Below are positions 41,641 to 63,195 of a stretch of 64,000 bases of DNA, in pieces; the stretch's first letter is position 1, and each line of letters begins with the position of its first letter. The position numbers and the translations under genes were made by a program. Source of the DNA: Anastatus disparis (taxonomy: Eukaryota; Arthropoda; Insecta; Hymenoptera; Eupelmidae). Location: contig JAFFSR010000243.1 in NCBI GenBank assembly GCA_017163975.1, positions 1,922,001 to 1,986,000 of the forward strand, written 5' to 3'. The notes beneath the pieces are model-generated. The model was not told the origin of the DNA and made no database searches. It worked only from the letters and a program-made list of their open reading frames with translations.

Positions 41641-41750
41641 ATATTTTCCCCATACCGCGGCCAAAAACACGTCGTTATTCGTCGAACGCATGCAGTAAGC
41701 TTGGCGCCGGCGCAGACCCGTATACTGCTGTGTTTTCAAGTCTCGTTTTA

Positions 41751-42660
41751 GGCCAATCAATAGAGCATATTGTCGTGACAAAAATAACATCCAGAAACTA
41801 ACTATGCCATCATATTAATGGTAGTCCCAGTTGATATTCTGACATGTTTTCAACTCTGAAATATTGTCAGTTAATTTGTTATTAACAATTAATTGCAAAA
41901 AATCGTTTTTTGCTTATAAAATCGAAACTAATGAATCAATCACGATGATGTTGCAAGACAAATTGTAGAGAATAAGAATACGCACGAAACAAGATGTTAA
42001 AGGACTCAAGCGGATATTTAGAAACGTAAAAAAGACAGAAAAATCGCAAAAAATCAGGACTTTTTCGAAAATTTATATCTCTGCCATTTTTCGAGCTTTA
42101 GCGTAGATCTTTCGCGAAATGGTAGCTATTAATATGTACCTTATATGCACTAAAAGTAGGTCTTGTCAGATTATAAGTTTTTGTACAATTGCGATTTTAA
42201 TTTTTTTTAGCAGTATTTTTCAGCGAGCCTGGAAGCGTTATGCGTTGTCCGATTTGAATTTTTAAAAATGATTTTTAAAGTAAAAATGATAAACTACAAA
42301 ATGTCTATTCTAGTTTTGCGTTGCAATGTTGGAAAATATGTGAAAGAAGCCTGTGAATATGACTGAAAACGGCCGAGCGCAGGTAAGTACTCAAATAGTG
42401 GAGGTAACAGCAGTACAGGAGAAACGCGTATATATAGTAATAGTAATGCTTTGTGCGTTGCTCCGAATCTTTTCATTTAATCATTTTAGCAACTATAGCA
42501 AATATTTAAAAGTTATTTTTTTTATTCCGAGGTAACTCGAGCCAAAAAAACTGATTTTTTACTTAGATTTCATAAAAAATCGATGGAAAAACAGATGTTG
42601 GGTGTTATTTAACATTTCATTAAATTTTAAAATATCATTCACTACATTATATTTATTTAT
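41751..42660. repeat. Left terminal inverted arm of element K
   Basis: Pairs with 62,040-62,589 in reverse complement. Shared landmarks are AACTAACTATGCCATCATAT, TTAATTTGTTATTAACAA, GCCGAGCGCAGGTAAGTACT and CGCGTATATATAGTAATAGT. This arm has about 430 bases (roughly 41,925-42,350) absent from the right arm. Confidence 0.8.
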
Positions 42661-42700
42661 AATAATTATAGTTAAATTAATAAATATAATTTTGGTAACA

Positions 42701-43577
42701 GGACAGTTATTTCGCCGAATGAGTCATTTGGCCGAATGGTACATTTGGTCGAAAGGTATTTGGCCGAATGGATCATTTGGTCGAAAGGGACATTCGCGAT
42801 TTGCGTTGAATAACCAGCAAGTTCAATGTATAACAATATCCACATACATTTCTTGTGATAAACGTGGTATTTGTAATATATACTATCAATAACCAACCGC
42901 AATGTGCGCCGAATAACCAGCAAGTTCTATGTATAACAATTTCCACATACATTTTTTGTGATTAACGTGTTATTTGTAATATATACAGTCAATAACTAAC
43001 CGCGATGTGCGCCGGATAACCAGAAAATTTTATATGTAACAATTTCCACATACATTTCTTGTGATAAACGTGGTATATGTAATATATACTGTTGATAACC
43101 AACCGCGATGTGCGCTGAATAACCAGCAAGTTCTATGTATAACAATTTCCGCGTACATTTCTTGTGATAAACGTGTTATTTGGGATATATACTATCAATA
43201 ACCAACTGCAACGTGCGCCGGAAAACCAGCAAGATCCGTGTACTACAATTTCAATGCATTTTTTTGAATAAATAATAACTTTACTTTATTGTTCTTGAAT
43301 ATTGTGGAGTATTAAATAATACCATACTGCTAAATTCTGAAGTACATAGTGCATTTAACAGTGATTATTATGTATTCAAGCAAATATTCCTTTTATCAAA
43401 TGACCCTTTCCGTCAAATAACTTTCGGCCAAATAGCTTCCAGCCAAATGTCTCATTCGTCCGAATAACCCTTTCGATCAAATGGCTTTCGGCCAAATGAC
43501 CAATTCGATCAAATGGCTTTCGGCCAAATAACTTCGGCTAAATAGGATTCGGCTAAGTGGAATTCGGCCAAGCGTCC
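42701..43577. mobile_element. MITE with CATTTGGCCGAAT-type ends and a 103 bp satellite (plus orientation)
   Basis: The left end GGACAGTTATTTCGCCGAAT and right end ...GGCCAAGCGTCC are built of many short inverted phrases of the CATTTGGCCGAA kind. Inside, at 42,805-43,240, about 4.5 tandem units of 103 bases recur, with TAACCAGCAAG starting at 42,811, 42,914, 43,017 and 43,120. Confidence 0.75.
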
Positions 43578-43717
43578 GTAATCCATAATTTTAGTTAAAT
43601 ATTATCATAAAATATGTAGATTGATAAAGGTAAGAAGCAATTTTTAATTCCTCAAGGCTAGGACAGGTATATTTTTAAATTTAGGTGGTTGGATTCTAAA
43701 CATCTAAGTCGAATCCC

Positions 43718-45032
43718 GGACACTTCACCAAATTCCACTTGGTCAAATCCCATTTGGCTGGAAGTTATTTGACCAAAAGCCATTTGGCTGAATGGTACAT
43801 TTGACCGAAAGTCATTTGGCCAAAAGGAATATTTGCTCGAATAATTACTAATCACTGTTGAATGTACAATAAGCTTGAGCATTCAGCAAGAAAATTATAA
43901 TAAAGTTATTATTTATTTTAAAAAATGCATTGAAATGGTTTTACAAAGATCTTGCTGGCTATTCGGCGCACATCGCGGGTGGTTATTGACAGTATACATT
44001 ACAAATAACACGTTAACCGCGGATAATGTGTATAGAAATTGTTATACATAGAACTTGCTAGTTATCCGGCGCAAATCGTGTGTGGTTATTGACAGTATAC
44101 ATTACAAATAACACGTTAACCGCAAGTAATATATATAGAAATTGTTATACATAGAACTTGCTGGTTATCCGGCGCACATAGCAGGTGGTTATTGACAGTA
44201 TACTTTACAAATAACACGTTAACCGCGGATAATGTATATAGAAAGTGTTATACATAGAACTTGCTGGTTATCCAGCGTACATCGCGGGTGGTTATTGACA
44301 GTATACATTACAAATAACACGTTAACCGCGAGTAATGTATATAGAAATTGTTATATATAGAACTTGCTAGTTATCCAGCGCAAATCGTGTGTGGTTATTG
44401 ACAGTATACATTACCAATAACACGTTAACCTCGAGTAATATATATAGAAATTGTTATACATAGAACTTGTTGGTTATCCGGCGCACATCGCGTGTGCTTA
44501 TTGACAGTATACATTACAAATAACAAGTTAACCGCAAGTAATGTGTATAGTAATTGTTATACATAGAACTGGCTAGTTATCCAGCGTACATCACGGGTGG
44601 TTATTGACAGTATACATTACAAATAACACGTTAACCGCGAGTAATGTATATAGAAATTGTTACACATAGAACTTGCTAGTCATCCGGCGCAAATCGTGCG
44701 TGGTTATTGACAGTATACATTACCAATAACACGTTAACCCCGAGTAATATATATAGAAATTGTTATACATAGAACTTGCTGGTTATCTGCACATAGCGGG
44801 TGGTTATTGACAGTATATATTACAAATAACACGTTAATCGCAAGAAATGTATATAGAAATTGTTATACATAAGAAACAAAGTATTATTTCTTTTATGAAA
44901 GAACTATGCTAACTGCTCAAGAGAAAAATTATTTGAAATGGAATCAAATATCCCTTTCAGCTAAATGGCTTTCGGCCAAATGTCCCTTAAGGCCAAATGA
45001 AATTCGGCCACGTGGAATTCGGCGAAGTGTCC
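43718..45032. mobile_element. Second MITE of the same family with the satellite in reverse orientation
   Basis: Ends GGACACTTCACCAAATTCC and GGAATTCGGCGAAGTGTCC. Inside, from 43,951 to about 44,870, about nine 103 base units occur (CTTGCTGGTTAT-type starts at 43,951, 44,054, 44,157, 44,260, 44,363 and on). They are the reverse complement of the satellite in the first MITE. Confidence 0.8.
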
Positions 45033-45039
45033 TGTTACC

Positions 45040-45710
45040 ATCTGAATTATGCTTATATCCTTCGTATAACTGTATCTTTTCTTTTAACATCTGTCCATAG
45101 TGTATAGTTCAGAACTAAGCTATAGAATTAAAAAGTGAAAAAAACGACGTCAACGGTCTGTTTTAGTTGTTTAGTTTGTTTGATACTGTAAAGACATTGC
45201 TAGTTAAATCTACAAATTTATTTATTATTTGTTACTGTATTCTTATTTTTTATAATATTCAATTGTTTCATTTTTAGTTTTTTTTTAATTTAATTTAGAC
45301 CATTATTATAATTCAATAATTACTTTTTCAAGTGTGATAAATATTTCTTGAAGTATTCAAGCAATTCCAAAGTCATTGTACGAGGTACGTATACAAATAC
45401 TAAATATACCTCATAATATTTTTTCTCGGCTACAATAAATTGAAATTACTAAATAATACCTTCCATCTTTGGAAATGAAATCGTAATTCTATTCAATAAA
45501 TACAGTAGTACCTAAAAAGTTGATTAAAAATTCTGAATCCGTTGTGACTGTATATTATTGTAATATTGTCAAATAATATTTGTCAAAGATTTAAACTTTT
45601 TTTATAATTTAAAAAATTTAAATAAATAGATAAATATTACATCATCTTATACAAATCATATATAATCATAAAAAAATACATTGCTTAGATATTTTTCTAT
45701 ATAATTTTTC
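45040..45710. other. AT-rich DNA inside element K, no feature seen
   Basis: No open frame of note and no repeat recognised. Confidence 0.4.
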
Positions 45711-45713
45711 ATA

Positions 45714-45980
45714 TACACGGAGCGAACAAATCGGGAATACTTCCTTGCGCCCTCTACTGCTATAGTTCCGTACACATGTTTTTGGATATAGACCTTGTGT
45801 ATAAGCAACGATTCCATAACCCATCGGGAAAAAGTCCGAACGCTTATAGAGCGTTCGGACTTTTTCCCGATGCCTTATGGAATCGTTGCTTGTACGCAAG
45901 GCCTATTTCCAAAAACGTGCGTACAGAACTGTAGCAGTAGAGGGCGCAAGGAAGTATTCCCGATTTGTTCGCTCCGTGTA
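45714..45980. mobile_element. TA-flanked near-perfect hairpin MITE
   Basis: About 130 base arms pair almost end to end with a short loop near 45,850: TACACGGAGCGAACAAATCG on the left, its complement on the right, and GCGTTCGGACTTTTTCCCGA near the loop. TA stands outside each end. It ends only about 65 bases before the ATG of the K gene, so it could affect that gene's promoter. Confidence 0.85.
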
Positions 45981-47237
45981 TAAGTTTCTTATTTTTTCAA
46001 AACTTACAAAAGAATTGCACAGTAACTCTTGTTTTGATTACTAGATGAAAAAAGGTCATATCGTTGAATCAGATACAGAAGGAGCATCGACCTCTGTAAG
46101 TGATATGTGAGTTATGATTCTAAGTTTCATTTGGCTTATTAAATTGAAATACGAATGTATACTTGTTTTCTGTCAAATACCGATATTTTTTCATTTATTT
46201 TATGTCTATATGTTATTTTACTTTTATTAAATATCATTTTTGATATGCATAAAAAATTTCGATTTCTTTTAAAAAAATATTATAAAACTATGCCATTTTT
46301 TAAATATCAATTATTTTTAATATAAAATTAAAAAATACAATATTTTAATCGAAATAAAATATTATATCGTGTTATAAAAGTCATTCATAATCGGAAAAAA
46401 TTATGTATCGTTTATTTACTTTTCATGTGAAATGTCGATCGTATAATTTTTTTTATTCTATCAAATATTTCATAATGATTTATTTATTATATTTTGTGTT
46501 TGATATAAAAAAATTTAAATCACACGAAAGTTTAATATTTTATAGCACTGCGAAACCTAAATCTGCATTTAGGTAACGCAGCTCCGTTACCTAGGTGACT
46601 TTTTTTTCACAATATAATGATGAATTTACTTATAGGTAACGTACGCATAATAAAAAATAATTTGATATGAAGATTTTTTTTAAAGTATTTTCATAAATAA
46701 CAATAAGCTGTAGTATATTAAAACTCTTTGCTATTAACATTTTTTAAATTAAATAACAATTATGAGTAATTACGGGTAAAACTAAGGTTGATAATAACGT
46801 AACATATGAAGTATCAAAATTTTAATTCGAAGCAAAAAATCAAAATTTTTGAAACAAGAACCACCACAACGAGTTCAAAATTCCGAAAATTTCGGGATTT
46901 TGGTCTCGTTGCAGTTTATAGATGATTCAACAAACAATATCACATAATATCAATGATATTGATAACAATTAATTTTTACACATTTTAAGTATATTTTTGA
47001 AATTATAGTTTCTTTTCTTTTTTAATTTATCATTTATGAAGTATTTAGTTTTAGTTTATTTATAGTTTTCGTTTTTATTTTTGATTTATTATTCACAGGA
47101 TGCCTAGTATTTGGTTTTTTATAGTTTTCGCTTTTAGTTTTTGAATCATCATTTGTGCAGTACATAGTTTTCGTTTATTACTGATTTTGATAAGTACAGA
47201 TTTGATTTGGCGGATTTATGTCCCGCGTGCTACAAAA

Positions 47238-47343
47238 TAGTATACGATACTCGTGACTCAAGTGGAACTTTATTACACGACACGATGTCTCGTGCCGTGT
47301 AATAAAGTGCCACTTAGGTCACATGTATCGTAATGTACTATTA
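47238..47343. repeat. Hairpin in the K gene intron
   Basis: Two arms of about 48 bases (ATAGTATACGATACTCGTGA... and its near-complement) pair around 47,290, with GTGTAATAAAG and CTTTATTACAC next to the loop. Probably a small foldback insertion. Confidence 0.7.
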
Positions 47344-48481
47344 ATACAATTACAATACGAATTAACAAAGCATACTTTCAGAAATTGATAATTTTTTATT
47401 TTTTCATTGATTTATATATATTCATATTTAAAAATTTATGAACAGATTTTATGTAAATTTCATGTAAACCAGAATATTTTCTTAATAATTGGTCAATATG
47501 ATTGTATTAAGTTTTTCCATACAATTTAAATAAAGATTTGATTTTTATAATGTAATAAAATTATGTATAGAATGATGAAAAAATCTGAAATTTAATGCAA
47601 ATGCAATGTAAAACTGGAAGCTTGATTCAAGTCTGTACAAGAAAATTATTAATTTTACCGTAATTCTACAGCGAAATAGCATAAAAATTGATAATTTTAC
47701 CATAATTTTATTGTACTATTGCATGAAATTGTGTGTATGAGCATATAGAAATTTATTTATTTCACATGAGATTTTAGATTTTTAGAATTAAATTTTATAA
47801 ATTTTTATTAAATGTTTGTTAATATACTATGTTATAAATGAAATAGAATTTTTATTTTTTATCTACGTATACATATAACCTTTACACATTCTAAAAATCA
47901 ATTATTATATTTAGGCATGAAGAACTGCCACCAGCTCAAGATGATGATGTATGGGAAGATACCATTGATATCTGTATGCTTTGTGACGAACCCATAGAAT
48001 CTTCAAAATCCCGGCTTGTCAAAGAACGAGGAATAAATAATCTACTTATTGCAAGTACTCGCCGTAAGGACAATAAACATTTAATTTTGCAAAAATTAAA
48101 ACAAGTAACCATACATACAGTTTGCCAAAATATGTATACAAGAGAATCAAATATTGAATTAGCTTCAAAGTCCCAGAAAAAAAGTGGCAAGATGATAGAA
48201 AACGTCGTCAAGATGGTCAAGATTTTGAATTTTCGAAAAATTGTTTCTTTTGTTCTTTTTCGTGTATTGATAGCAAAAAAAATTGTAAACGTATTTCAAA
48301 ACAAACGACAATTGACAATATAAACGCACAATTAATAGTATACCCGAAAACAGAATGAAATAAAATAATAGCATCGCCTCTATGTATTTTAAATATCAAA
48401 GAAGATAATTTCTACACTAATAATGATGTGTTTTACCATTCACAATGCTTAAGAGCATGACGAAGCTGCCCGCCTTATAAT

Positions 48482-48840
48482 AATATTTCCAATCCTAACT
48501 TATGAATAAATGATGCGTTTAATCGAGTTTTTTTGCTTCAAAGAAAAAATTTGTAAGATTAAACTCTAGTGCGGACAACTCAAGAAATCCACCAAAATAT
48601 AATACATACAAAGTTATAATAAAAACTTTCAATGTATCGTATTTTAAGGTTAGGTTTGCCGAGTTTGATATTTAATTTCCAATCCAAACTCATAAAAAAA
48701 TAACAAGACCAAATGATTTTTTATTTTAACAAAAATTATTGTATTAATATAGCTTTAGTGCGGACAAGTCATTATATTTGTTTAATTTATGAATTTAAAA
48801 AAATATTGATAAAATAAAAAAAGCAAAACTCGATTGCTGC
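48482..48840. repeat. Unrecognised insert with two diverged direct copies in the K gene
   Basis: The coding match pauses here. Two stretches starting ATTTCCAATCC (48,485 and 48,674) and both containing AGTGCGGACAA are diverged direct copies. Target duplication not found. Confidence 0.4.
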
Positions 48841-50235
48841 AGCTCCGACATGCCGTTAAGTGTTTTTTATCAATATAATCTAAATACCGTTCTGGGAAGA
48901 CCGATTACAGAGAACATGTCTAACTTAATATCTTTCATTATAAATTATATATTAGAAAATTCTGCCAATTCTCTTTGAGAGTTATTATTAACGAATACAT
49001 AGGCCAATACGGACGAACAGATGTACCTCGATTTGAAAGATTCAAAGATTATTTGAAAGAACATTTTGATGTGTTTCTTTGTTTTAAACGTACTCTAGGA
49101 AAATGTTTAGAAAATGAGTGGTATTCTTTAAGACGAAAAAGCAACGAAGAAGAAGGAAGATTGAGAATAGTCGAAATGGCAGTGCATATTATGCTGCAGG
49201 ATATAAGAGCAATGAACGACATTGAAAATTACAATTCGCCAACAGATTTTTTAACCAACATCAAAGATGTGCCACAAATGTTAAAATTATTAATTGAAAT
49301 TCTAATTAAAACCCATAAACATGAGCCGAAAAATGGGTTGTGGGAGAAATGGGAGAATAGAACATAACAGCAGCTCATATTTTGATATCTTCTGTGAGAC
49401 CGCGATCTTTCTCTTCTCCCATTTTATAAGGTCTATCGTGCATGATGAACACAAAATTTTCAGCACGAGGTCTTATTGATTGTTTGTACAATATAGGTCT
49501 TTGTGCATCGTATTCTGAAACGATGAAATTTGAAAGCTCATTAATAAATGATCCTGAAACTTTCAATTTTGTTACTGATACATATTTACAGTTTGTTTAC
49601 AATAGTGCCGACCATAATACAGCGACTATTTATGGCAAAAATACGTTTCATTGCATGGGTGGTATAATGTGTGTAACGCCATCATCCTCAGTAATTTTTA
49701 ATAGTAATATTCCGCGCTTGAAAGGGACGTTACCTGCCAATCAGAGTTGGGCATAGTTAATTAAATTCGTCAATTGATTGACGAATAACTAATAATTAAG
49801 TGATTAGTTATTAATTAAACTTCAATTAACTGAGAATAATTATCATTATGGGTCAGTTAATTGAAAATAAAATTTTAATTACCAATTACATAAGAGTTTA
49901 ATTGATGATTAAGATTTTAATTATCAATTAAACGATTCGTAATTGATAACTTATTTTAATTGACTAATATTTAATTAAGAATTAAATTTTTATTATCAAT
50001 TAAATACGAGTTTAATTGATAATTAATATTTTAGTTATGAATTAAAAAACCTGTAATTAATAACTAATTTTAATTATCTAAAGTCTAATTGAGAATTAAA
50101 TTTTAATTATAAATCATATAAGAGTTTAATTAAAAATTAAAATTCAGTTATCAATTAAATGACCCATAATTGAGAACTAATTTTAATTATCTGAAGTTTA
50201 ATTAAGAATTAAATTTTAATTATCAATCATATAAG

Positions 50236-50848
50236 AGTTTAAGAGGACGTTGGATCTTTCTATCCTTTTCTAATCGAAAAATGTAGGATATTGGAAAAAC
50301 TAGTAATTATTAGTAGAAATTAAGAGTTAGATCTCAGTGGCTCAGTCGGTAGAGTGAGGGATTCGTAATCTCAAGGTTCCGAGTTCGAATCCCGCTCTCG
50401 GTGACCGAATGATACAAGTACCACTGTACGTTACATGTGCTTTGTTCACAAACACACTGATGATCTCCGTCGCTAATTAGCATCAAATGATAGCATAAAT
50501 AGAGCGACGTTAAATAAAAAAAAAAAAAAAAATAAGAGTTGTCCGCAACTTGTACAGTAAAAAACAATATTTTTTCTTATGAGGACAAATTACTTTTGAT
50601 GCTTTCTTTTCAAGAAAAGTTTGACATACTTAAACATCATAATCTCTAGCTTAACTTATGATTTTTCAAGTATGTCAAACTTTTCTTGAAAACAAAGCAT
50701 CAAAATTAATTTGTCTTCATAAGAAAAATATTGTTTTTTACTGTACAAGTCGGGACAACTCTTAATTTCTATCAATAATCACTAGTTTTTCCAAAACCCT
50801 ACAATTTTTAAGTAAAAAAGGATAGAGAGATCCAGCGTCCTCTTAATT
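50236..50848. mobile_element. Foldback in the left subterminal array
   Basis: Ends AGAGGACGTTGGATCTTTC and its near-complement ...GATCCAGCGTCCTCT, with a centre near 50,650 (GACATACTTAAACATC side). The left arm carries a SINE that the right arm lacks. Confidence 0.82.
50329..50532 (+). mobile_element. tRNA-derived SINE, family B, copy 2
   Basis: Head with A box TGGCTCAGTCGGTAGAGTG and B box GAGTTCGAATCCC, body shared with the SINE at 13.93 kb, and a poly-A tail. The 8 base duplication TAAGAGTT stands at 50,321-50,328 and 50,533-50,540. The unoccupied arm is at about 50,755. Confidence 0.9.
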
Positions 50849-52267
50849 GAGAATTAAATTTTAATTATCAATTAGATAAGAGTTTAAATAAAAATTAAAA
50901 TTCAGTTATCAATTAAATGACCCATAATTAATAACTAATTTTAATTATCTAAAGTTTAATTGAGAATTAAATTTTTATTATCAATTAAATGAGAGTTTAA
51001 TTAAAAATTAAAATCCAGTTATCAATTAAATGACCCATAATTAATAACTAATTTTAATTATCTGAAGTTTAATTGAGAATTAAATTTAAATTATCAATTA
51101 AATGAGAGTTTAATTAAAAATTAAAATTCAGTTATCAATTAAATGACCCATAATTGATGACTAATTTTAATTATCTGAAGTTTAATTGAGGATTAAATTT
51201 TAATTATCAATCACATAGGAGTTGAATTGAGAATTTAATTTTAATTATCAATTTAATAAGAGTTTAATTGAGAATTTAATTTTAATTATTAATTTAATAA
51301 GAGTTTAATTAAAAATTAAAATTTAGTTATCAATTAAATGACCCATAATTGATAACTAATTTTAATTATCTGTAAATTAAATGGCCTGTTAATTGACAAC
51401 TAATTTTAATTATCTGAAGTTCAATTGAGAATTAAATTTTAACTATCAATTACATAAGTTTCATTAATCATTAAAATTTTAGTTATCAATAACATGACCC
51501 GTAATTGGTACCTGATTTCAATTATCTAAAGCTTAATCGAGAATTAAATTTCAACTATCAACTAGCAAAAAATGATGGTTTTTTTTAACTTTTCCGCTAA
51601 ATTAAGCAACGTTTATATTTTTTCACGTTTTGTTCCTTAGTCTTTTTTTTGTTATAGAAAAACGAAAAGAGAGCATTTGAAAAGCAAGTTTAATCTAGGT
51701 AAACTTCCTTTTTTTATATTATACAGTTAATTACCCCGATATGTCCGCTTTCCTTATGACCATACCCCTCCGTTAATGTTTGAAGCTTACCCTCTCCATG
51801 CCTACTAACTCTCAAGCCTTGAAATTTATATCCGAGATTCTCTATATGACCACGAGTTTCTTGAATTCTTATTGATTGGAGAAACATGAATTTAAAAACA
51901 AATTTCACCTAAATCATTTTTATTTAAATATAAAAATGAATTTTATATTATTAATTATTCATCGGAATATCAAACATTATATGATGATGAAATAAAATCA
52001 AAATTTTCATCTTGGTTAGCTTTTCTATCATCAATTTGGAACGATCAACATTGATTGATTCTTTTACTTCTTTTTCATTATGATCATAATTGAATACTAA
52101 AATCATTTAAATCATTAATATTATAACCTTAAGTATTACTTTCTACATATCATGTGTATCAGATACGAAATAATATTTACCATACACGTTTGTTATTAAA
52201 AATATATAAACACTGGATTGTGCCTGGAACCGAGAAATGTAGCATGCGCCTTAGTGAGGGTACATCG

Positions 52268-52530
52268 ATACACTGTAAAAAATTTTGTGTAATTCGTTAA
52301 ATTTTATTTTGTAGAAATATTTTTGTGTTAAAATTTTACAAACGTTTGTAAAATCAACACAAAAAATTTTGTAATTTAAAAATTAAAACAAAAACTTTTG
52401 TAGAATTAACACATGGAGTTTGTAAATTTTACAAACATGTGTGTACTTATAAATTTTAACACAAAAAAATTTGTATTTCATCTCTAACACTTATGTGTGT
52501 TAAAATTACAAATTTTTTTTCACTGTGTAC
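52268..52530. mobile_element. MITE with CACTGT-poly(A) ends
   Basis: Left end TACACTGTAAAAAATT and right end AATTTTTTTTCACTGTGTA are inverted. The interior is made of repeated TTTTGTGTTAAAATTTACAAA phrases in both directions (phrase shortened and variable). Non-coding. Confidence 0.7.
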
Positions 52531-53419
52531 TTGGAATTGTAGGGTCGCGGAGTTTCCGCCAGAAGCATCTTTCGCCAGAAACGGTTTAAGGCCGGTTTAC
52601 ATGGTGCAGCGGCGAAGAAGATTTGTGTATGAGAAAAGATTTCATAGTGTTAAATCATTCCATTTTATTATAAATGTTAAATATACTTGATTTAAAAAAA
52701 ATAAATAAATATACATCATGTAGCAGCATTGAAAGTAGATACATTATAATTAAAATTGTGTCTATAAAAAAATAATATAATAAAAACTATAGTTATTTAA
52801 TATAATAAACTATAATAATTATTACAGTAAGACTATAATTGAAGGCCCGGATGCAATAAGAGCATTTACGCTCGGAGCACGTAAAACTGAAGTCACTTGG
52901 TAGTGAAAATTTCATTTTCTTCAAATAAATTTCAAAAAATTTAACGTTGTAAAACTCATCATGCCGCATCTTTTTTATATTAATAGTTTTTTTATGAAAT
53001 TTTTATTTTTCAAGAAAAAAATTAAAAACAATAAAATTTTTTACATTAAATTTCAATACTTTTTTAAACTTAAATCCTTGTAATTCGAGTAAATATTAAC
53101 CGGTTTTGCTGAAATTTGAAATTTATTTTCTAAATATTATAGCGAAACTTATGATAATTATAAAAAATGTTAATTCTTAAATAGTTAGTCGCAATTGTTT
53201 ATTAATTAATACAAATTACAAATTGTGCGTTTATAATGTACTCGAGAAAAAAGTATCGAGGGAACTTTCAAGTACAAGAAACTTGTAGCGAGAAAGTTTT
53301 TGGTTTTTGTATAAAAAAGATTTGTGGAAAGTTTCAAATCGATTGATGAATAATTAAAATAGATATAACATTTTACAAGTAGCGCGCATGCGGTCGAGCG
53401 CTGCAGTTTTCTTTATCAG
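52531..53419. other. hAT-like element interior, no gene recognised
   Basis: A 65-codon open frame at 52,493-52,690 spans the MITE edge and has no known domain. The rest is AT-rich and without features I can support. Confidence 0.35.
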
Positions 53420-54455
53420 TTAGATTCTCAGTGAATATTATTGTCAACTGAATGACTCTTGGTAATATTATTTGGGCAAAATACAAATATAAATAATAAA
53501 TGATATTTATTTAAAGTAAATAAACATATAAATAAACAAATAAATAAATAAATAAACACAAAATCTGTAATGTAATTATTTAATAATTAAATAATTATGT
53601 TACAGATTTTGTTTAATACTAATTTTTATTGTTTCAAATATTTCTATTTTGTCTGTTAAACCTTTTTTTCTTTCACATTAGTAATATAAGTTTTCTAAAA
53701 AATAAATAAAGAGTATTTTTAAACAATATAATGTTTGGGATTTATATTTATAAAAGTAAACATATATGCGTGTGTACGTTCACTCTTCTTCTACATAAAC
53801 AATTATAAATTTTGCCCGAATATATATATATATATATACGATTTGAAAGTGCTGTGGTCTTAACATATAGGAATATTTTGCTCAGTCTTCTTAAGTTTAA
53901 ATTTGTGAAAATTGTACACCATGAGGAATAATTGAATCAAAAACGGTCAAAAAGGAACAAGAAATGATACATCGTTCTTTTCCGACCGTTTTTTGATTCC
54001 ATTATAAGTATAAAATAATTTTCATTCCTCGTGATGTACAATTTTACAAGTCTAATCGTTATACAAAAGAAGACTAGTAGCAAAATATTCCTAAGAATAT
54101 GCAGTACATACGCATATATGTTTACTTCTATAAATATAAATCCCAACATTATATTGTTTAAAAATATGACATTTTGTGTTTTAAAAAAACTCATATTACT
54201 AATGCGAAAAAAAAAGGTTTAACAGACAAAATAAAAAGAAATCCTTTGAAACAATAAAAAAATCAGTATTAAAGAAAAATCTGTAATGTAATTATTTAAT
54301 TATTAAATAATTACATTATAGATTTTTGTTTATTTATTTATTAGTTTATTTATATGTTTATTTACTTTTAGTAAATATCATATTGTTATATTTGTATTAT
54401 TGCTTTTTCCAAATAATATTACCAAGAGTCATTCAGTTGACGTAATATTCACTAG
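53420..54455. mobile_element. Foldback, ~1.0 kb
   Basis: Arms of about 500 bases; matching landmarks are TGAATGACTCTTGGTAATAT (53,450) with ATATTACCAAGAGTCATTCA (54,420), and AAATCTGTAATGTAATTATT-type phrases at 53,560 and 54,280. The centre is near 53,960. (TA)n lies at 53,820-53,838. Confidence 0.78.
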
Positions 54456-54486
54456 TAAATTATTTACTAAAATTATTTCACGGTAT

Positions 54487-55371
54487 TGTAACGACCTAAA
54501 AAGGCTTTCTAAAATTTTTCTTTTTTATATACTTTAGCAATAGTCAACATCAAGACCTTTTGTATTTATAAAAAGTATATTAGAATCAATATGTACTACT
54601 GTTAGCGTTAGCTTAGGAAATTAGACTCTAGGTCAGCACGTATAATTTTGTTCATATTTCGCTACTAGGCCAATGGAAAACGTACGAAGTTTTATTACCC
54701 TAGTAGACGTTCGTTACCTTTTTTGGGCCTAGCCGAAAAACTTCAACCAATGGTGGCCTATGAAGTTTTGCACGTAATTCTTTTGTTTAAACATTTCGTT
54801 AGGCCACCGGAAACACACGCTTTCTGTTTCCTTTTATGGTTTTAAACAAATTGTACTTGACCAATACCGGCTACAAGAGGTGGACCCAAGTTCGACACGT
54901 GCCATTTCCAATAATTTCTATTGTCTTTTTCCACTTTCGTTCTCTTTTTGTTAGTATAAAAAGACTTGGGAACATCCTCTAGGAAGCCAGTCATTTGCTC
55001 ATTTATAATTGTTACAGATCACTTCAATTATTGACCAGCGGGTCACCATTAATAATAAAAAGAAGCCAGTTTACCAAAATCTATAGTACAGTGCGGCCGT
55101 AAGTTACTTATATATAATAATCTACATTCAGTGAAAAATTAATATTTTATAAATTCTTTATTAACTTGAAAAGTATATTGAAAATCTAAAAGTTATAATC
55201 TAAAAGTATTATTGCATTATTTTGAAATTACAATTTCTTTATTTCTACTTCTAACGTCGGAAAGTGTATTAACAAATATAAACAAAAATCATAAATCTAA
55301 AAATTATTATTATGATACAATCTTCTTGCGAGAACGAATTTATAACAAATTGTGTACCAACGACCGACGAA

Positions 55372-55418
<47 letters not shown>

Positions 55419-55656
55419 TACATATTGTTTAATAAACCAGGAACTTTAAGTAAGCCTGACAAATTATTTAAAAACCTTTCTTTTTCTAGATCCCTTCTGA
55501 TTCTTAACGAGTTCTCGAGCTCGCGAAAGAAATCACATCCTTTCTCCTCTCTGCCACGCAATTAAATATATTTGCTACGCATCCGCTCGGCGTAGCAAAA
55601 CTATAACGTTCATCAATAAAATTATATTTATAATTATAAATAATCAGAACGTTACA
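54487..55656. mobile_element. Gypsy-type solo LTR
   Basis: It begins TGTAACGACC and ends GAACGTTACA, with terminal TG...CA in a short inverted repeat. An exact 4 base duplication GTAT flanks it (54,483-54,486 and 55,657-55,660). A TATA-like AGTATAAAAAGAC stands near 54,952 and AATAAA-like signals near 55,050 and 55,430. A (TA)n tract lies at 55,374-55,425. At 1170 bases it is a typical Gypsy LTR length. No internal region follows, so recombination has left a solo LTR. It sits in one arm of a small AT-rich inverted repeat whose other arm (55,770-55,835) shows the empty site. Orientation is likely plus from the TATA position. Confidence 0.82.
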
Positions 55657-56706
55657 GTATCATAATCAATAACTGTAATCATTACTACAAGATTATAATC
55701 ATTGATTACCCAATGTAGTTGTAGAATTAATCGTTGAATATATTGTAATTAATAATTATGATTTTGTAGTTATTATTATAGTTATTGATTATAATACCGT
55801 GAAATAATTACAGTATATCATAGTTTTACTGTAATAATTATAATATATCATAGTTCAGTAAAGTAAATAACTATAGTTTTTATTATAGTATTTTTTAAAA
55901 GGGTTATAGTAAATATTAGATTATATAACCATAGTTCTATATATATTTATTTATCAAATGTTTTATATCGTAATAAAAATTGTTACTACCATTACAAAAT
56001 TACAAAAAGATATTAAAAGAAATATCAAATGAATGTTCCCTTACGAAAAATAAATTTAAATACACACCGAAAATAACACTGTAATCAGCACTTAATCAAC
56101 ACTAAAATTTTGAGGATTATTTCGTATACCGAAAAAACACCAAGAAAACACCGTCATGAACACCCAAAATTTAAGAGTGCTTTTGATTTTGGTGTACACC
56201 CAGTGTTAGGTATTCATTTTGGTATACACCCAATTTTAGTGTGCATGATGTGTACACTCAGTTTTGGTGTACACAGTGTATATACCCAATTTTGGTGTAC
56301 ACAGTGTATACACGAAATTCTGGTATGCACAGTGTATTTTTAATTTTAGCATACATATAATTACAAAATTTTATTTCTGTAATTATAGGTAAACATTGAA
56401 ATTAGTTATACACGACGTAGACCAGTTTGAGGTACAAATAAATATGAATGCCTAAAAACAAAATACAGATAATAATAATTAAATTTATTAAATTTAAAGA
56501 AAAGTAACTAAATTTGTAAATTTAAATAAATAATTGATAATTATAGAAATTTATTGATACTAAAATAGTTTTTATTTTTTTTTATTATACATTAATCTCT
56601 TTATTAATAATAATACATTATGAAAATACTAAAATTATTAGGCATAACTTTAGTTACGAATTTTATTTTATTATTAAGCGACTAATATAATATTAAATTC
56701 TAAAAA
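55657..56706. repeat. AT-rich inverted phrases and a short tandem repeat
   Basis: 55,660-55,930 is a weak foldback built on ATAGTTATTGATTATAAT-type phrases. 56,170-56,340 holds about six diverged tandem units of about 30 bases marked TTTTGGTGTACACAGTGTA. The small open frame at 56,110-56,343 is this tandem repeat read through. Confidence 0.55.
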
Positions 56707-56795
56707 AGGCGAGAAAGCGTCCGCGACGTGGATCGAACCCCGGGCCTCTTGCACGACAGACAAGCGCTTAAACGTTGAGCCATTCCCACCGATGC
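56707..56795 (-). other. tRNA-like sequence (probably a SINE head or pseudo-tRNA)
   Basis: On the minus strand GGTGGGA and TCTCGCC can pair as a 7 bp acceptor stem. An A-box-like TGGCTCAACG, an anticodon arm CTTGT/GCAAG with loop CTGTCGT and a B box GGTTCGATCC follow in the right order. The T stem does not pair and there are about ten extra bases before the 3' acceptor strand, so I do not call a functional tRNA. Confidence 0.4.
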
Positions 56796-57219
56796 ATTTT
56801 CATTTCTTTGGTCGCTTCATATTCTATAAACTGCATACTTGCATTTTTTCTATATTCGCTACTATACGGCACTCGTAACACGTCTGAGGCCGTGGTAATG
56901 TCGTCTCCGACGTTTTATATATTAACTCCCATAGTTATTATAGAAATCTTCTTGATTTATCGACCGCGCAATCAGAAATTTCGTCAATCAGAAATTGAAA
57001 AACACGAGTCACTTTATGTAGACAATGCCTAGGTCTCAGGATAATCTACGGTTGGACGAAACATCATCCATCATAAGTGTATCTGGTTTTATAGCAGAGA
57101 ATAAAAAAATAAGGTATCATCTACAACGAAGTGCATCTAGTGTTATAGAGGCTTATCGAAAGATAAAAGTCACTTCTTGTAGAGGATGCGTGGATGCCAA
57201 GAATTTAATCATAGTTTGA
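56775..57219 (+). other. Two short overlapping open frames of unknown nature
   Basis: 56,775-57,032 (85 codons, two hydrophobic stretches) overlaps 57,025-57,219 (64 codons) by a few bases. I do not recognise either. They lie between the tRNA-like sequence and the right subterminal array of the hAT-like element, and could be a captured host fragment or chance. Confidence 0.25.
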
Positions 57220-58090
57220 ATAATTAAACCAATTATCAATTACGTGTCATTTAATTAATAACTAAAACTTTAACTATTGATTAAACTCTCGTATAATTGA
57301 TAACTAAACATTTAATCATCATTTAATTTATATATAAAACTTTAATTCTCGATTAAACTTCATATAATTGAAATCAGTTAGCAATTACGGGTCATTTAAT
57401 TGATAAATAAAATATAAACTATCAATAAAACTCTTAAATGATTGATAATTCAAATTTAATTCTCAATTAAACTTTAGATAATTAAAATTAGTTATCAATT
57501 ACGGGTCATGTAATTGATAACTTAAATTTTAATTATCAATGCAACTCTCATGTAATTGATAATTGAAATTTAATTCTCAATTAAATTCAGATAATTAAAA
57601 TTAGTTATCAATTATGGGTCATTTAATTGATAACTGAATTTTAATTTTTAATTACATTCTTATTTAATTGATAATTAAAATTTAATTCTCAATTAAACTT
57701 CAGATAATTAAAATTAGTTATCAATTATGGGTCATTTAATTGATAACTGAATTTTAATTTTTAATTAAACTCTTGTTTAATGGATAATTAAAATTTAATT
57801 TACAATTAAACTCCTATATGATTGATAATTAAAATTTAATTCTTAATTAAACTTAAGATAATTAAAATTAGTTATCAATTATGGGTCATTTAATTGATAA
57901 CTGAATTTTAATTTTTAATTAAGCTCTTATTTAATTAATAGTTAACATTTAATTCTCAATTAAACTCTCATTTAATTGATAATTAAAATTTTATTCTCAA
58001 TTAAACATCAGATAATTATATTAGTTATCGATTACGTGTCTTGTAATTAATGACTAAAAGTTTAATTAATAATTATTAATGGATAATTAC
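57220..58090. repeat. Right subterminal array of the hAT-like element
   Basis: About eleven diverged units carrying AATTATGGGTCATTTAATTG and related phrases, the reverse complement of the left array, ending about 17 bases before the right terminus. Confidence 0.85.
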
Positions 58091-59689
58091 TCATTTGCAC
58101 AACCCTGCTGCCAATACGAGCAGCACATTTGGCTTTCTCCCACTAACAGATTTCAAAAATAATAAACCGTTCAAATTAGACAGTGTGATTGTACAGGATT
58201 GGAAAGAAACAAATATTCCTGACTTTACCCTTCAAATCGAACCGGTCGATCTTTTATACTTCTACGGTAAGCACGCTGCAGCGAAGAAAACTCCTAATTG
58301 GTACGGATTAATGAACAAATTACATACGTTAAATGGAGATTTTTGCACAAGAGTTATTGCATCACCATTTATTAAAGTACCACCAAGCGACCATACTACA
58401 ATTTTAACGCCGCTGATTGATGCTAGGCGTAGAGCAAATCAAAATAATCAAAAACACTGTTTTGTTACATTTCATTTGCTTCTCTATATGAAAACTAATA
58501 AAATTATTTTTTTAATTGATGACACTAATGATTCACATAATGTACGTTCTGTAATCCCTCGTTTAGGAGGTTTTCATTTGGCTATGTCTTTTCTCGGGGC
58601 AATTGGAAATATAATGGCAGGTAGTGGTCTAAAGGAACCTTTTTGTACAATTTACGCTAAATTGTCAGCAGAAAAAGCATTGACCGGTCATGCATTTTCG
58701 AGATCTGTAAAAGGTCATTTGTTAGTAAAAGCTGCACTTGCTACCAATGTTTGTAAAAGCATACAATTTACGCAGCCAGAAACCGAATTTTTAGATTCAA
58801 ATTTAAATGAAATTAGAAAAGAAAATTTTAGAACATTTTTAATGGATTCTTTAATAAAGGAAATTACAAAGAAATTTGAATCTACTTTTTTAATGCTAGA
58901 GAATAATGGACCAACAAGTCAACTCTGGGTTCAGTATTCTAAATTGTTTTACTTGCTACAAAGATATATAGACGCAGAGCGATCAGAAAATTTCGACCTA
59001 CATCTTGAAGCGGTCAAATTAATGACACCCTTCTTTTTCTCCTCGGGGCATCACTTATATGCCAAAGCTTATTTGCTCTACATTCAACGAATGATAAGTT
59101 TAAAAGATATAATGGATATTGTACAGTATGACAAGTTTTGCAAACAAGGATTTAACACTGTTAGGCGGTCCAATCGTTTTTAGTGCGGAATATGGTCAGA
59201 TATGACCATTGAACAGGTATTGATGCGAGCTATTAAATGTACTGGAGGCTTGACACATGGTCGCGGATTAACTGAGAATATTATTGGAAAATGGGTGTCA
59301 TTTAGAATTGTTGTATTAGAAATCGGCAACGCTATGGAAAAATTTTGCGATTTGACGTTTGCGACATCTGAGCAGCATATCAACAACCGTATTTCTCGAA
59401 TATCTAGAGATGCAAATGATTTGGCGAAAGTACAGCAATTCTTTGAAACTTATAATCCCTTTCGGAAATCAGATAAAATATTTGGAATATATTCCGGTAT
59501 AATTGGCGATTTAAAGAATGTAAACTGTGACAAAGCTTTTAAAATTGGAAAACTGTTGATGTTGGAGACGTCGAATAAAAAATTCACAGACATTAAATAT
59601 AAACAAAGTAGTAAGATGGTAAATTTATTATCTACAAACGCTTTGATATAAAATAATGCCAATGAAGAAGTTCACATGTCACCGTTGTT

Positions 59690-60169
59690 TTTTTTTTTTT
59701 TTTTTTTTTTTTATCTGGTTCGCCCTATTGGCCCGGTGCAGCCTCTTGGCCAAGCTACCGACATCCTTGACCACCTCTGTGTCAGGATGTTTGCCTACCT
59801 TTTTCCCTTACCTATATGTTTCCTGTACCTTTATTTTTCCTACCTATTCCTTTACCTATTTTTAATCTACCCATACCCGAGAAATCACAGACTGCCGCGT
59901 TCCTAGAACAGTCGGTAAGTAGATTTCTACGGTAGATTCCTGCATTCGCCCAGGCCTAAGCCTGTGACGTAGGGAAAACTCCCCCAGGAGAAAACCTACG
60001 CCAGGAATATTTACCCATCGCGCTCAGAAGTTCTTTTTCCGATGAAAAACGCCTGAAAAAAATTTCAGGTGTTTTCACCGGGAATCGAACCCCCGACCAC
60101 TCGGAGCGAATGTGTAGAGACCGTATAAGGCGTGTGCCTTAGCCGGTTACGCCACAGACGCTCTTTTTT
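59690..60169 (-). mobile_element. tRNA-derived SINE, family A, copy 2, inside the K gene
   Basis: Same family as 12.54 kb: poly-T at the left end, and on the minus strand a tRNA-like head at the right end (B box GGTTCGATTCCC, A box TGGCGTAACCGGC). An exact 15 base duplication CATGTCACCGTTGTT flanks it (59,675-59,689 and 60,170-60,184). The exact duplication suggests a recent insertion. Confidence 0.93.
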
Positions 60170-61548
60170 CATGTCACCGTTGTTAATCTTTCAAAAAATT
60201 TCTCTTAATATTTAAAATCAAGATGATATGAAAAACTATTGCAGTAATTATGAACTTTCACCAATACCATTATCTTTATTCGATGAAAATGGCATGCAAA
60301 AGACTTCGAAATCTTTGTTTTACTCCAATTTTATTTGTTTCCAAGAAGTGACAGAGAAAGGAAATGTTACGCATTTGTAGATGGTGGTTTTTTCTCAAAT
60401 AAAGTTGTGTGGCAAACGAATGTTTAAATGAGTAAAATAATTGATGGTTACGTTTCTTATGCAAAAAAAAACATTATAATCAGAATAGTCTGATTATTTT
60501 TTATGGCTATCCCGACGACGAGACATCATCAACAAAATCTGTTGAGCGTTTGCGTAGATATTCAAATATTGGACGTGAAATCGTTTTTAATGAAAATACT
60601 ATAATTACTGTGGCACAAAAATAATTTTTAAGTAATGCAAAATATAGTTTGCAGTGCGATTGAAAATGCTCGAATAAATTCCGGAGCTACAATAATTATT
60701 GTAAACGAGGATATCGATTTGTGGGTTATTTTATCGCAGCTGGCATATAATATTAATAACATCTATTTCCACAAAGAGGTTCTAATCCAAATGAATATTA
60801 AAGTAATAGTAGTTTCAAATATCATAATTTACAAAAAATAGTTGCATTTTTACACGCATTTTGTGGATGCGATACAACATGATGTTTTTATAGAATAGGG
60901 AAAAAAATAATTGTCAATTCAACAGATCATCAAAAATTAATTGAATTAGCATCAGCATTTTATAAAGATGATGCCAGTTGCGAGAAAATAACGCAAAATG
61001 CTATAACTTTAATAATGGTGATGTATAGCAGTAAGGCGGAAAAGAAATTGCTAGAAAAAGCTAAAAACTTTAGTTTAAGCGAATTGCGTTATTTGCATTT
61101 TAACTAAGCCAAAATAAAAACCAAATTTGCCTTGGAAACTTTGCCGCTGACGGAAGGAGCAGCAAAACAACACACATATCGCGTTTATTTCCAATTGCAA
61201 TTATGACTAGGGAACACAAATCTGTCTACAACTGATTGGAGATGGGAATTACGACACAATCATTTAATGCCAATTGGGAGTACAGACCCACACATCCCTA
61301 AAAAGTTACTAGACCAGATTTCGTGTTCTTGTAGCAAAAAAGATTGCACAGACGCTTTGTGTAGCTGCAAAAAACATGGTTTGCGCTGCACGAATCTCTG
61401 TGCAAACTGCGACGAAGAAAGTTACAGAAATTTAGATCCAAATAATTATTCTCTTCAATCGGATGACGATATAAGTGATAACGAAGCAGAAAATGAGAAT
61501 GAAAATTATGAGTATTTACCACCTACAAAAAAAAGTAAAATTGCGTAA

Positions 61549-62039
61549 TTTTTAAATTTAAGAATTAAAAAAAATTAAATTAAATTAAATTAAATAAAAT
61601 AAAATTTGTTATTTTTAATTGTTATTAAGTATTTTTTTATAGAAATGAATTCTATTTATTTATTTATTAAAATTAACATTAATAAATAAATAAACACTGA
61701 ATTATATTATATACCTTATCTTATTTTAGAAAATTTATTTTCCTCTATTTTTAATTAAAATGAAATTTCTAATGAAGTTATGTAAAATTATTAGAATTCA
61801 ACAAAAACTCATGTAATCTTGTGCTTTAAAGACGTTTGCATCTTTTTAAATAAATTAGAAATCTTATTCCAATAAACATATTATTTTTATATCTTTGCAA
61901 TAACATAAAATTAATTAGCATTGAAACAAAGTATTGATTATATTAATCAAAAATTAATTCATGCTTTTAACACATTTAAAAATATTCCAAAATAATATTT
62001 ACCAAATTTAGATATATTCAATTCTTTCATGAATTTTAC
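61549..62039. other. 3' flank of the K gene, AT-rich
   Basis: No gene. AATAAA signals near 61,680 and 61,872 could serve as polyadenylation sites for the K gene. Confidence 0.4.
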
Positions 62040-62589
62040 TGAAAATAATGTAATATTGTTTAATTGTTATAAAAAATGGTATTTTAAAATTCAATGAAAT
62101 GTTAAATAACATCCAACATCGGTTTTTCCGTCGATTTTTTATGAAATCTAAGTAAAAAATCAGTTTTTTCGGATCGAGTTACCCCGGAATAAAAAAAATA
62201 ACTTTCAACTAGCTGCTACAGTTGTTGAAATAATCAAATAAAAAGATTTGGAGCAACGCCTAAAGCATTACTATTACTATATATACGCGTTTCTCCCATT
62301 ACTATTATTATATATACGCGTTTCTCCTCAACTGCTGTTACCCCCACTATTTGAGTACTTACCTGCGCTCGGCCGTTTCTAGTCATATACACAGTTTCGA
62401 TTTTATATGCAAAAAACGGAAAAAATTTCGATTTTTTGCAATAAATTGTTAATAACAAATTAACTGACAATATTTCAGAGTTGCAAACATGTCAGAATAT
62501 CAATTGGGACTACTTTAATATGATGGCATAGTTAGTTTCCAGATATTATTTTTGTGACGAAATCAGTTTTTTTTTTCTATTGACTGGCC
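62040..62589. repeat. Right terminal inverted arm of element K
   Basis: Reverse complement of the left arm at 41,751-42,660, with a 430 base gap relative to it near 62,395. Confidence 0.8.
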
Positions 62590-63195
62590 TATTTGTGTGT
62601 GTTGGAAGTAGAGGAGAAATACGTTAATCTTTTTCCACTCACCCGTTATAAGTTATAAGCGTGAACTCTCTCTTTCATATGCATACTATAGTCAAAGAAG
62701 ATAAACGCCGTCTATATTCGTTGCTATGGTTAATCCTTTTTTGTTCACCAGTCACGTGCATCGATTCTCTCTGTCTGATATGTGTTACAAAATAGTGTAC
62801 GAACAATATTTATTTGTTTTAAAGTATTAAAATATAAAATAAACGGTTGATTGTGCTTATTTATTTTGTTTGATTTTATTTATTTTATTGTGATTTAGTT
62901 TTATTTTTATGAATTATAATATGTAGTGTATTATAATAAGAGTGATATATTTATGGATTATATAAATGAATTATCATCAGTGGCAGTAAGGCAGACAGAT
63001 AGTGCGCATGCTCGGTGGAGAGTATTAGATGATTCTTTGCGATACTTTTTTATTCATTGATTTTTCGTCGATAAATGAATTATTGCGAACTTTAAGTTGT
63101 ACGTGTTTTAGCCCGGGGAAAAAATCGTATAAGCCGCGTGGGATAAAAATGCGACACTTTAGGCCGGCATTTTTACCCCACGTAGCATAATATTC
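62590..63195. mobile_element. Foldback J copy 2, right part (split by element K)
   Basis: Matches foldback J (31.8-32.6 kb) in reverse complement up to the end TTTTTACCCCACGTAGCATA (63,172-63,191). The missing other part of J appears at about 41,640-41,750 (CATACCGCGGCCAAAAACAC), on the far side of K, in the matching orientation. Confidence 0.6.

Follow-up and report, generated by a model that had tools for sequence, protein, structure and literature searches.

A window of 64,000 nucleotides from the hymenopteran Anastatus disparis (contig JAFFSR010000243.1, positions 1,922,001 to 1,986,000) contains, between positions 41749 and 62591, an old, broken and immobile copy of a real transposon. 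Two long terminal inverted repeats (TIRs) enclose the remnant of a gene for a CXC-tailed protein, and gene and TIRs belong together. It is very likely a cut-and-paste DNA transposon copy of the AcademX type. The testable features agree with AcademX, and membership in it is called probable.

The inverted orientation of the arms, proposed in a preliminary description, was borne out by aligning arm with arm within the window: 298 of 377 positions were identical in a first alignment (E 2e-84) and 166 of 200 in a second (E 1e-48), which is well beyond chance. The true outer ends are two bases further out on each side than first given, at 41749 and 62591, and read TAGGCCAATCAATAG and (reversed) TAGGCCAGTCAATAG. 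The left TIR (41749..42640, plus strand) was delimited by arm alignment, end reading and genome matches, and the right TIR (62075..62591, minus strand), which is without one inner stretch that the left arm contains, by arm alignment and end reading. Flank reading gave a TTT directly outside each arm, at 41746..41748 and 62592..62594, as target-site duplication.

Related copies were sought in the insect's own genome (939 Mb, 399 contigs), where all match counts are lower bounds. The left arm had at least 59 matches (40 of 57 candidates scored), a 366-amino-acid piece of the protein at least 111 (112 of 149 scored), and the CXC tail at least 150 (150 of 433 scored). Wider stretches were taken for the gene copies C4, C246, C42, C340, C373, C272 and C211 only, and the first five of these include both flanks. 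Each of these five is bounded by long TIRs ending in TAG...CTA and flanked by a 3-bp duplication. The TIRs of C4 match at 98.3% over 1736 columns (element of 10.4 kb), those of C42 at 94.7% over 1801 columns (9.5 kb), those of C340 at 99.2% over 1611 columns (10.2 kb) and those of C373 at 99.2% over 1271 columns (8.6 kb). For C246, where the stretch covers part of the left arm, the TIR is 726 bp at 97.7% and the element 11.5 kb, including an extra 1.1 kb. C4 and C246 are 99.6–99.7% identical over most of their length, with different flanks, and in both the gene is spread over several overlapping frames. In the C4 element (L053 8710-8783), the right TIR begins before the open reading frame (ORF) has ended, the two having about 70 bases in common.

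Could the arms and the gene be unrelated repeats that lie together by chance? Short arm-only copies do exist in the genome, and the arm check covers only a minority of the 150 CXC-tail matches listed. However, such a pairing does not agree with the five TIR-bounded copies out of five, nor with the TIR end of C42, TAGTCCAATCAATAGAG, which nearly equals that of the window, TAGGCCAATCAATAGAG; the C42 protein is 41% identical over the 366-amino-acid piece. It is also at odds with C211, which has arms of the window's family and in which gene tail, 3' region and right arm follow in the window's order, save for a 5-kb gap. Chance pairing was thus rejected, and we give it practically no credence. C211 also carries a second tail-like piece on the opposite strand. 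The arm-only copies include pairs of arm matches 1–2 kb apart (C81, C278, C280, C317 and C362), which look as short non-autonomous elements would.

The target duplication was read at both ends in 11 elements, C211 being left out as its left arm match starts 300 bases in. Nine of them had an exact 3-bp duplication: TTT for the window, ATA for C81, C278 and C246, TAT for C362, TTA for C4, AAA for C42, TCT for C373 and CAA for C340. It was missing in C280 and C214. The left flank of these two is nearly the same as that of C34. When duplication length was tested on six of the nine, flanks matched at 3 bp in 6/6 and at 4 or 5 bp in 0/6. Pairing flanks crosswise between the same six elements gave 6 matches out of 30, owing to AT-rich targets and the recurrence of ATA. 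An empty site lies on the left side of C373: here a repeat of its flank, oppositely oriented, matches at 84 of 92 positions, with 3 gaps, and no element is present. This site reads CCCTCTCGCGG, with a single TCT and no TA.

These data bear on the target duplication of TA that had been the initial candidate, and on a Tc1/mariner-like transposon, in which TA would be duplicated outside a TIR starting with GG or GT. A TA does stand at both ends of all nine elements showing the triplet. However, in 9 of 11 elements the bases beyond this TA form the same triplet on both sides, the C373 empty site has its TCT once and no TA, which excludes a TA duplication, and the predicted fold of the transposase is of the P element/hAT/RAG type. 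TA duplication was therefore rejected, and a Tc1/mariner-like origin is very improbable.

The gene of the window is a transposase pseudogene (47934..61548, plus strand, from tblastn and ORFs), normally a single ORF of about 1500 amino acids, with frame changes, stops and two insertions. In tblastn with P0003 and P0005, the window copy matched residues 24-1500 of P0005, in pieces with repeated frame changes; the match shows that the window once carried nearly the whole protein. The pieces described next are on the plus strand. The first catalytic block of the DDE domain (49430..49756) reads VYNSADHN, versus (Y/F)DNADHN in most relatives, and a second DDE remnant (58080..59183) reads VTFHLLLY, versus VTFD(Q/L)PLY in most relatives, so that the first two transposase Asp residues are lost, as is the reading frame. 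A stop, inside SNRF*CGIWSDM, precedes the third block, SDMTIEQ, whose glutamate is retained (59184..59651). A remnant of a FEN/XPG-type nuclease domain follows (60170..61110) and holds both motifs first singled out as candidate catalytic blocks, NEDIDLWVIL and HAFCGCDT. The C-terminal piece (61207..61548) contains an eight-cysteine (Cys8) CXC segment, TCR-like, and the stop codon. A CXC-tailed protein remnant does stand between the arms as described; some 530 bases, rather than 490, separate its stop codon (61546-61548) from the right arm.

The preliminary description had taken this gene to be spliced. In the same genome, C42 and C340 each have one uninterrupted ORF, of 1505 and 1482 amino acids, and the window pieces lie in changing frames; the apparent spliced gene is therefore a broken single exon, and splicing was rejected for the window lineage. 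C373 (L058) and C272 (L059) represent another, distant lineage with a protein of this type, at about 25% identity to P0057. In C373 the CXC tail seems to be in a separate exon, so that the gene does seem split in this distant copy. C272, with an ORF of 1400 amino acids, showed only a 59% inverted match over 322 columns within the 7 kb taken.

One gene product thus combines a predicted DDE transposase domain, a nuclease domain with the EXO1/FEN1/XPG fold and a Cys8 CXC tail, preceded by N-terminal C/H motifs, and the better preserved copies of the same genome share this design. The DDE core is predicted to adopt an RNase H fold in which a helical insertion separates the second Asp from the Glu, and D, D and E are invariant in the relatives. 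Numbered along the stop-to-stop ORF of C42, the predicted DDE residues are 464, 627 and 872, and the Asp residues of the nuclease 1094, 1134, 1229, 1231 and 1285. In the fold comparison, the first 25 entries were all DDE transposases or RAG recombinase; Foldseek on its own gave weak matches, and a sequence search of solved structures returned no useful match (3 chains, best E 0.87). The folded protein thus resembles, in the models, known transposases in its DDE domain and FEN-type nucleases in its nuclease domain.

Pfam gave nothing above cut-off in the window pieces or in the proteins of the same genome. The CXC segment, found in the window and in relatives, matched the TCR family below threshold (14.8 versus a cut-off of 23.5 bits). 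The only recurrent Pfam match to the core was DUF6589, which exceeds its cut-off in two (P0181 and P0195) of the 17 relatives scanned and maps onto the DDE core in these, in P0049, in P0060 and in others. This position suggests that DUF6589 is a transposase domain and corresponds to the catalytic core of DDE enzymes of this kind. Among the matches listed, named relatives come from insects, cnidarians, molluscs, a sea spider and amphioxus, with one fish record. Most relatives listed are without name, and the names are mainly "uncharacterized", "hypothetical", "unnamed" and "Tesmin/TSO1-like CXC domain-containing", with one "asteroid-like". A pattern count over 239 proteins, rough, made with narrow patterns and not used as support, found, among those of at least 1400 amino acids, the GCD type in 71 of 114, CXC in 104 of 114 and DNxD in 113 of 114.

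The nuclease of AcademX is of the XPG type, and Academ carries a Cys8 zinc finger. The present element has such a finger, a nuclease, a DDD/E transposase and a 3-bp duplication. According to PMC10045372, AcademX has duplications of 3 or 4 bp and AcademH of 9 or 10 bp, lengths that seem tied to the encoded nuclease or helicase, respectively. The likeness to AcademX thus extends to TIR-bounded structure, DDE transposase, nuclease within the encoded protein and duplication length; no difference was seen, as judged by description, and no 4-bp duplication was found, only 3 bp in 9 of 11 elements. AcademH, placed in the same superfamily by that source, differs by its helicase and longer duplications, and the element has neither: duplications are of 3 bp, and no helicase family appeared in the Pfam scans, including a scan of 10 relatives, nor in the precomputed Pfam column for the 120 listed of 301 matches. 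A RecQ helicase is mentioned for Academ in PMC3627910.

Alternatively, the element could represent an undescribed superfamily with the same DDE, FEN/XPG and CXC protein and 3-bp duplications, only resembling AcademX. No protein name with Academ occurs among the matches listed (63 of 63, 120 of 192 and 120 of 301, most of them nameless), the core has DUF6589 as its sole recurrent Pfam match, and the likeness was judged by description. Nevertheless, a nuclease combined with a duplication of 3–4 bp is what PMC10045372 states for AcademX, and other papers list Academ among the DDD/E superfamilies (PMC9587614) and report it from insects (PMC9143410) and bivalves (PMC10294476). We therefore hold an undescribed superfamily to be unlikely, and the statement that no superfamily is assigned to this protein gives way to AcademX as the most probable one. 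As the element very probably falls in the named group Academ, it is instructive without representing a new kind. In the literature searched, a limited library and hence no proof of absence, no paper was found for Academ with XPG, Academ with Cys8 or DUF6589, and a further search gave only plant papers.

Among other known systems, the P element, hAT (Hermes) and Transib-RAG1 share with the modelled protein a DDE core of the RNase H fold in which a helical insertion precedes the catalytic Glu. To our knowledge, none of them has a flap nuclease or a CXC tail. Their duplications are 8 bp for P and hAT and 5 bp for Transib. Compared with EXO1, FEN1, XPG and GEN1, the nuclease here is one domain of a transposon protein and precedes the CXC tail.

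The 20.8 kb attributed to the element is its present span only, of which 11.2 kb belong to three nested elements; about 9.6 kb remain after their removal, within the size range of the better preserved copies (8.6–11.5 kb). The largest is a hAT-like element of 8.4 kb inside the gene (49742..58107), with ends CAGRGTTGKGCA and an 8-bp duplication, CTGCCAAT, at 49734 and 58108; it contains no ORF of 130 amino acids or more. Close to both ends it carries a 113-154-bp repeat, rich in AT and organized in inverted arrays. The gene is also interrupted by an insertion resembling a short interspersed element (59690..60169, minus strand), with poly-T at its left end and a 15-bp duplication, CATGTCACCGTTGTT, at 59675 and 60170; ARAGORN found no tRNA in it. 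Between left arm and gene sits a probable third nested element of 2.3 kb (42694..45039), with a TIR, GGTAACAGGACA, whose target duplication was not found. It contains two 103-bp satellite arrays in tandem, in opposite orientations, and short GGCCGAATGG-like repeats.

As to how such a protein might work, the zinc-binding ends (N-terminal C/H motifs and CXC tail) would bind DNA, perhaps at the TIRs. Apparently built like the P element, hAT and RAG/Transib enzymes, the DDE domain would cut the element ends and join them, staggered by 3 bases, to the target. The flap nuclease might trim or cut the strand left untransferred by the DDE site, or process the gap or flap after joining. In its boldest form, this scheme would define an undescribed superfamily in insects, cnidarians, molluscs and amphioxus. 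Its protein would unite in a single chain two DNA-cutting centres unrelated to each other, a DDE site of the P/hAT/RAG kind and a flap nuclease of the FEN/XPG type, each acting on one strand; we regard this as a long shot. If true, it would amount to a two-nuclease route of transposition. Already as it stands, the analysis gives a large family of animal proteins annotated as "uncharacterized" or "Tesmin/TSO1-like CXC" a concrete identity, that of the transposase of a TIR element, and C42 and C340, with their uninterrupted ORFs, offer material for testing what a flap nuclease does in cut-and-paste transposition.
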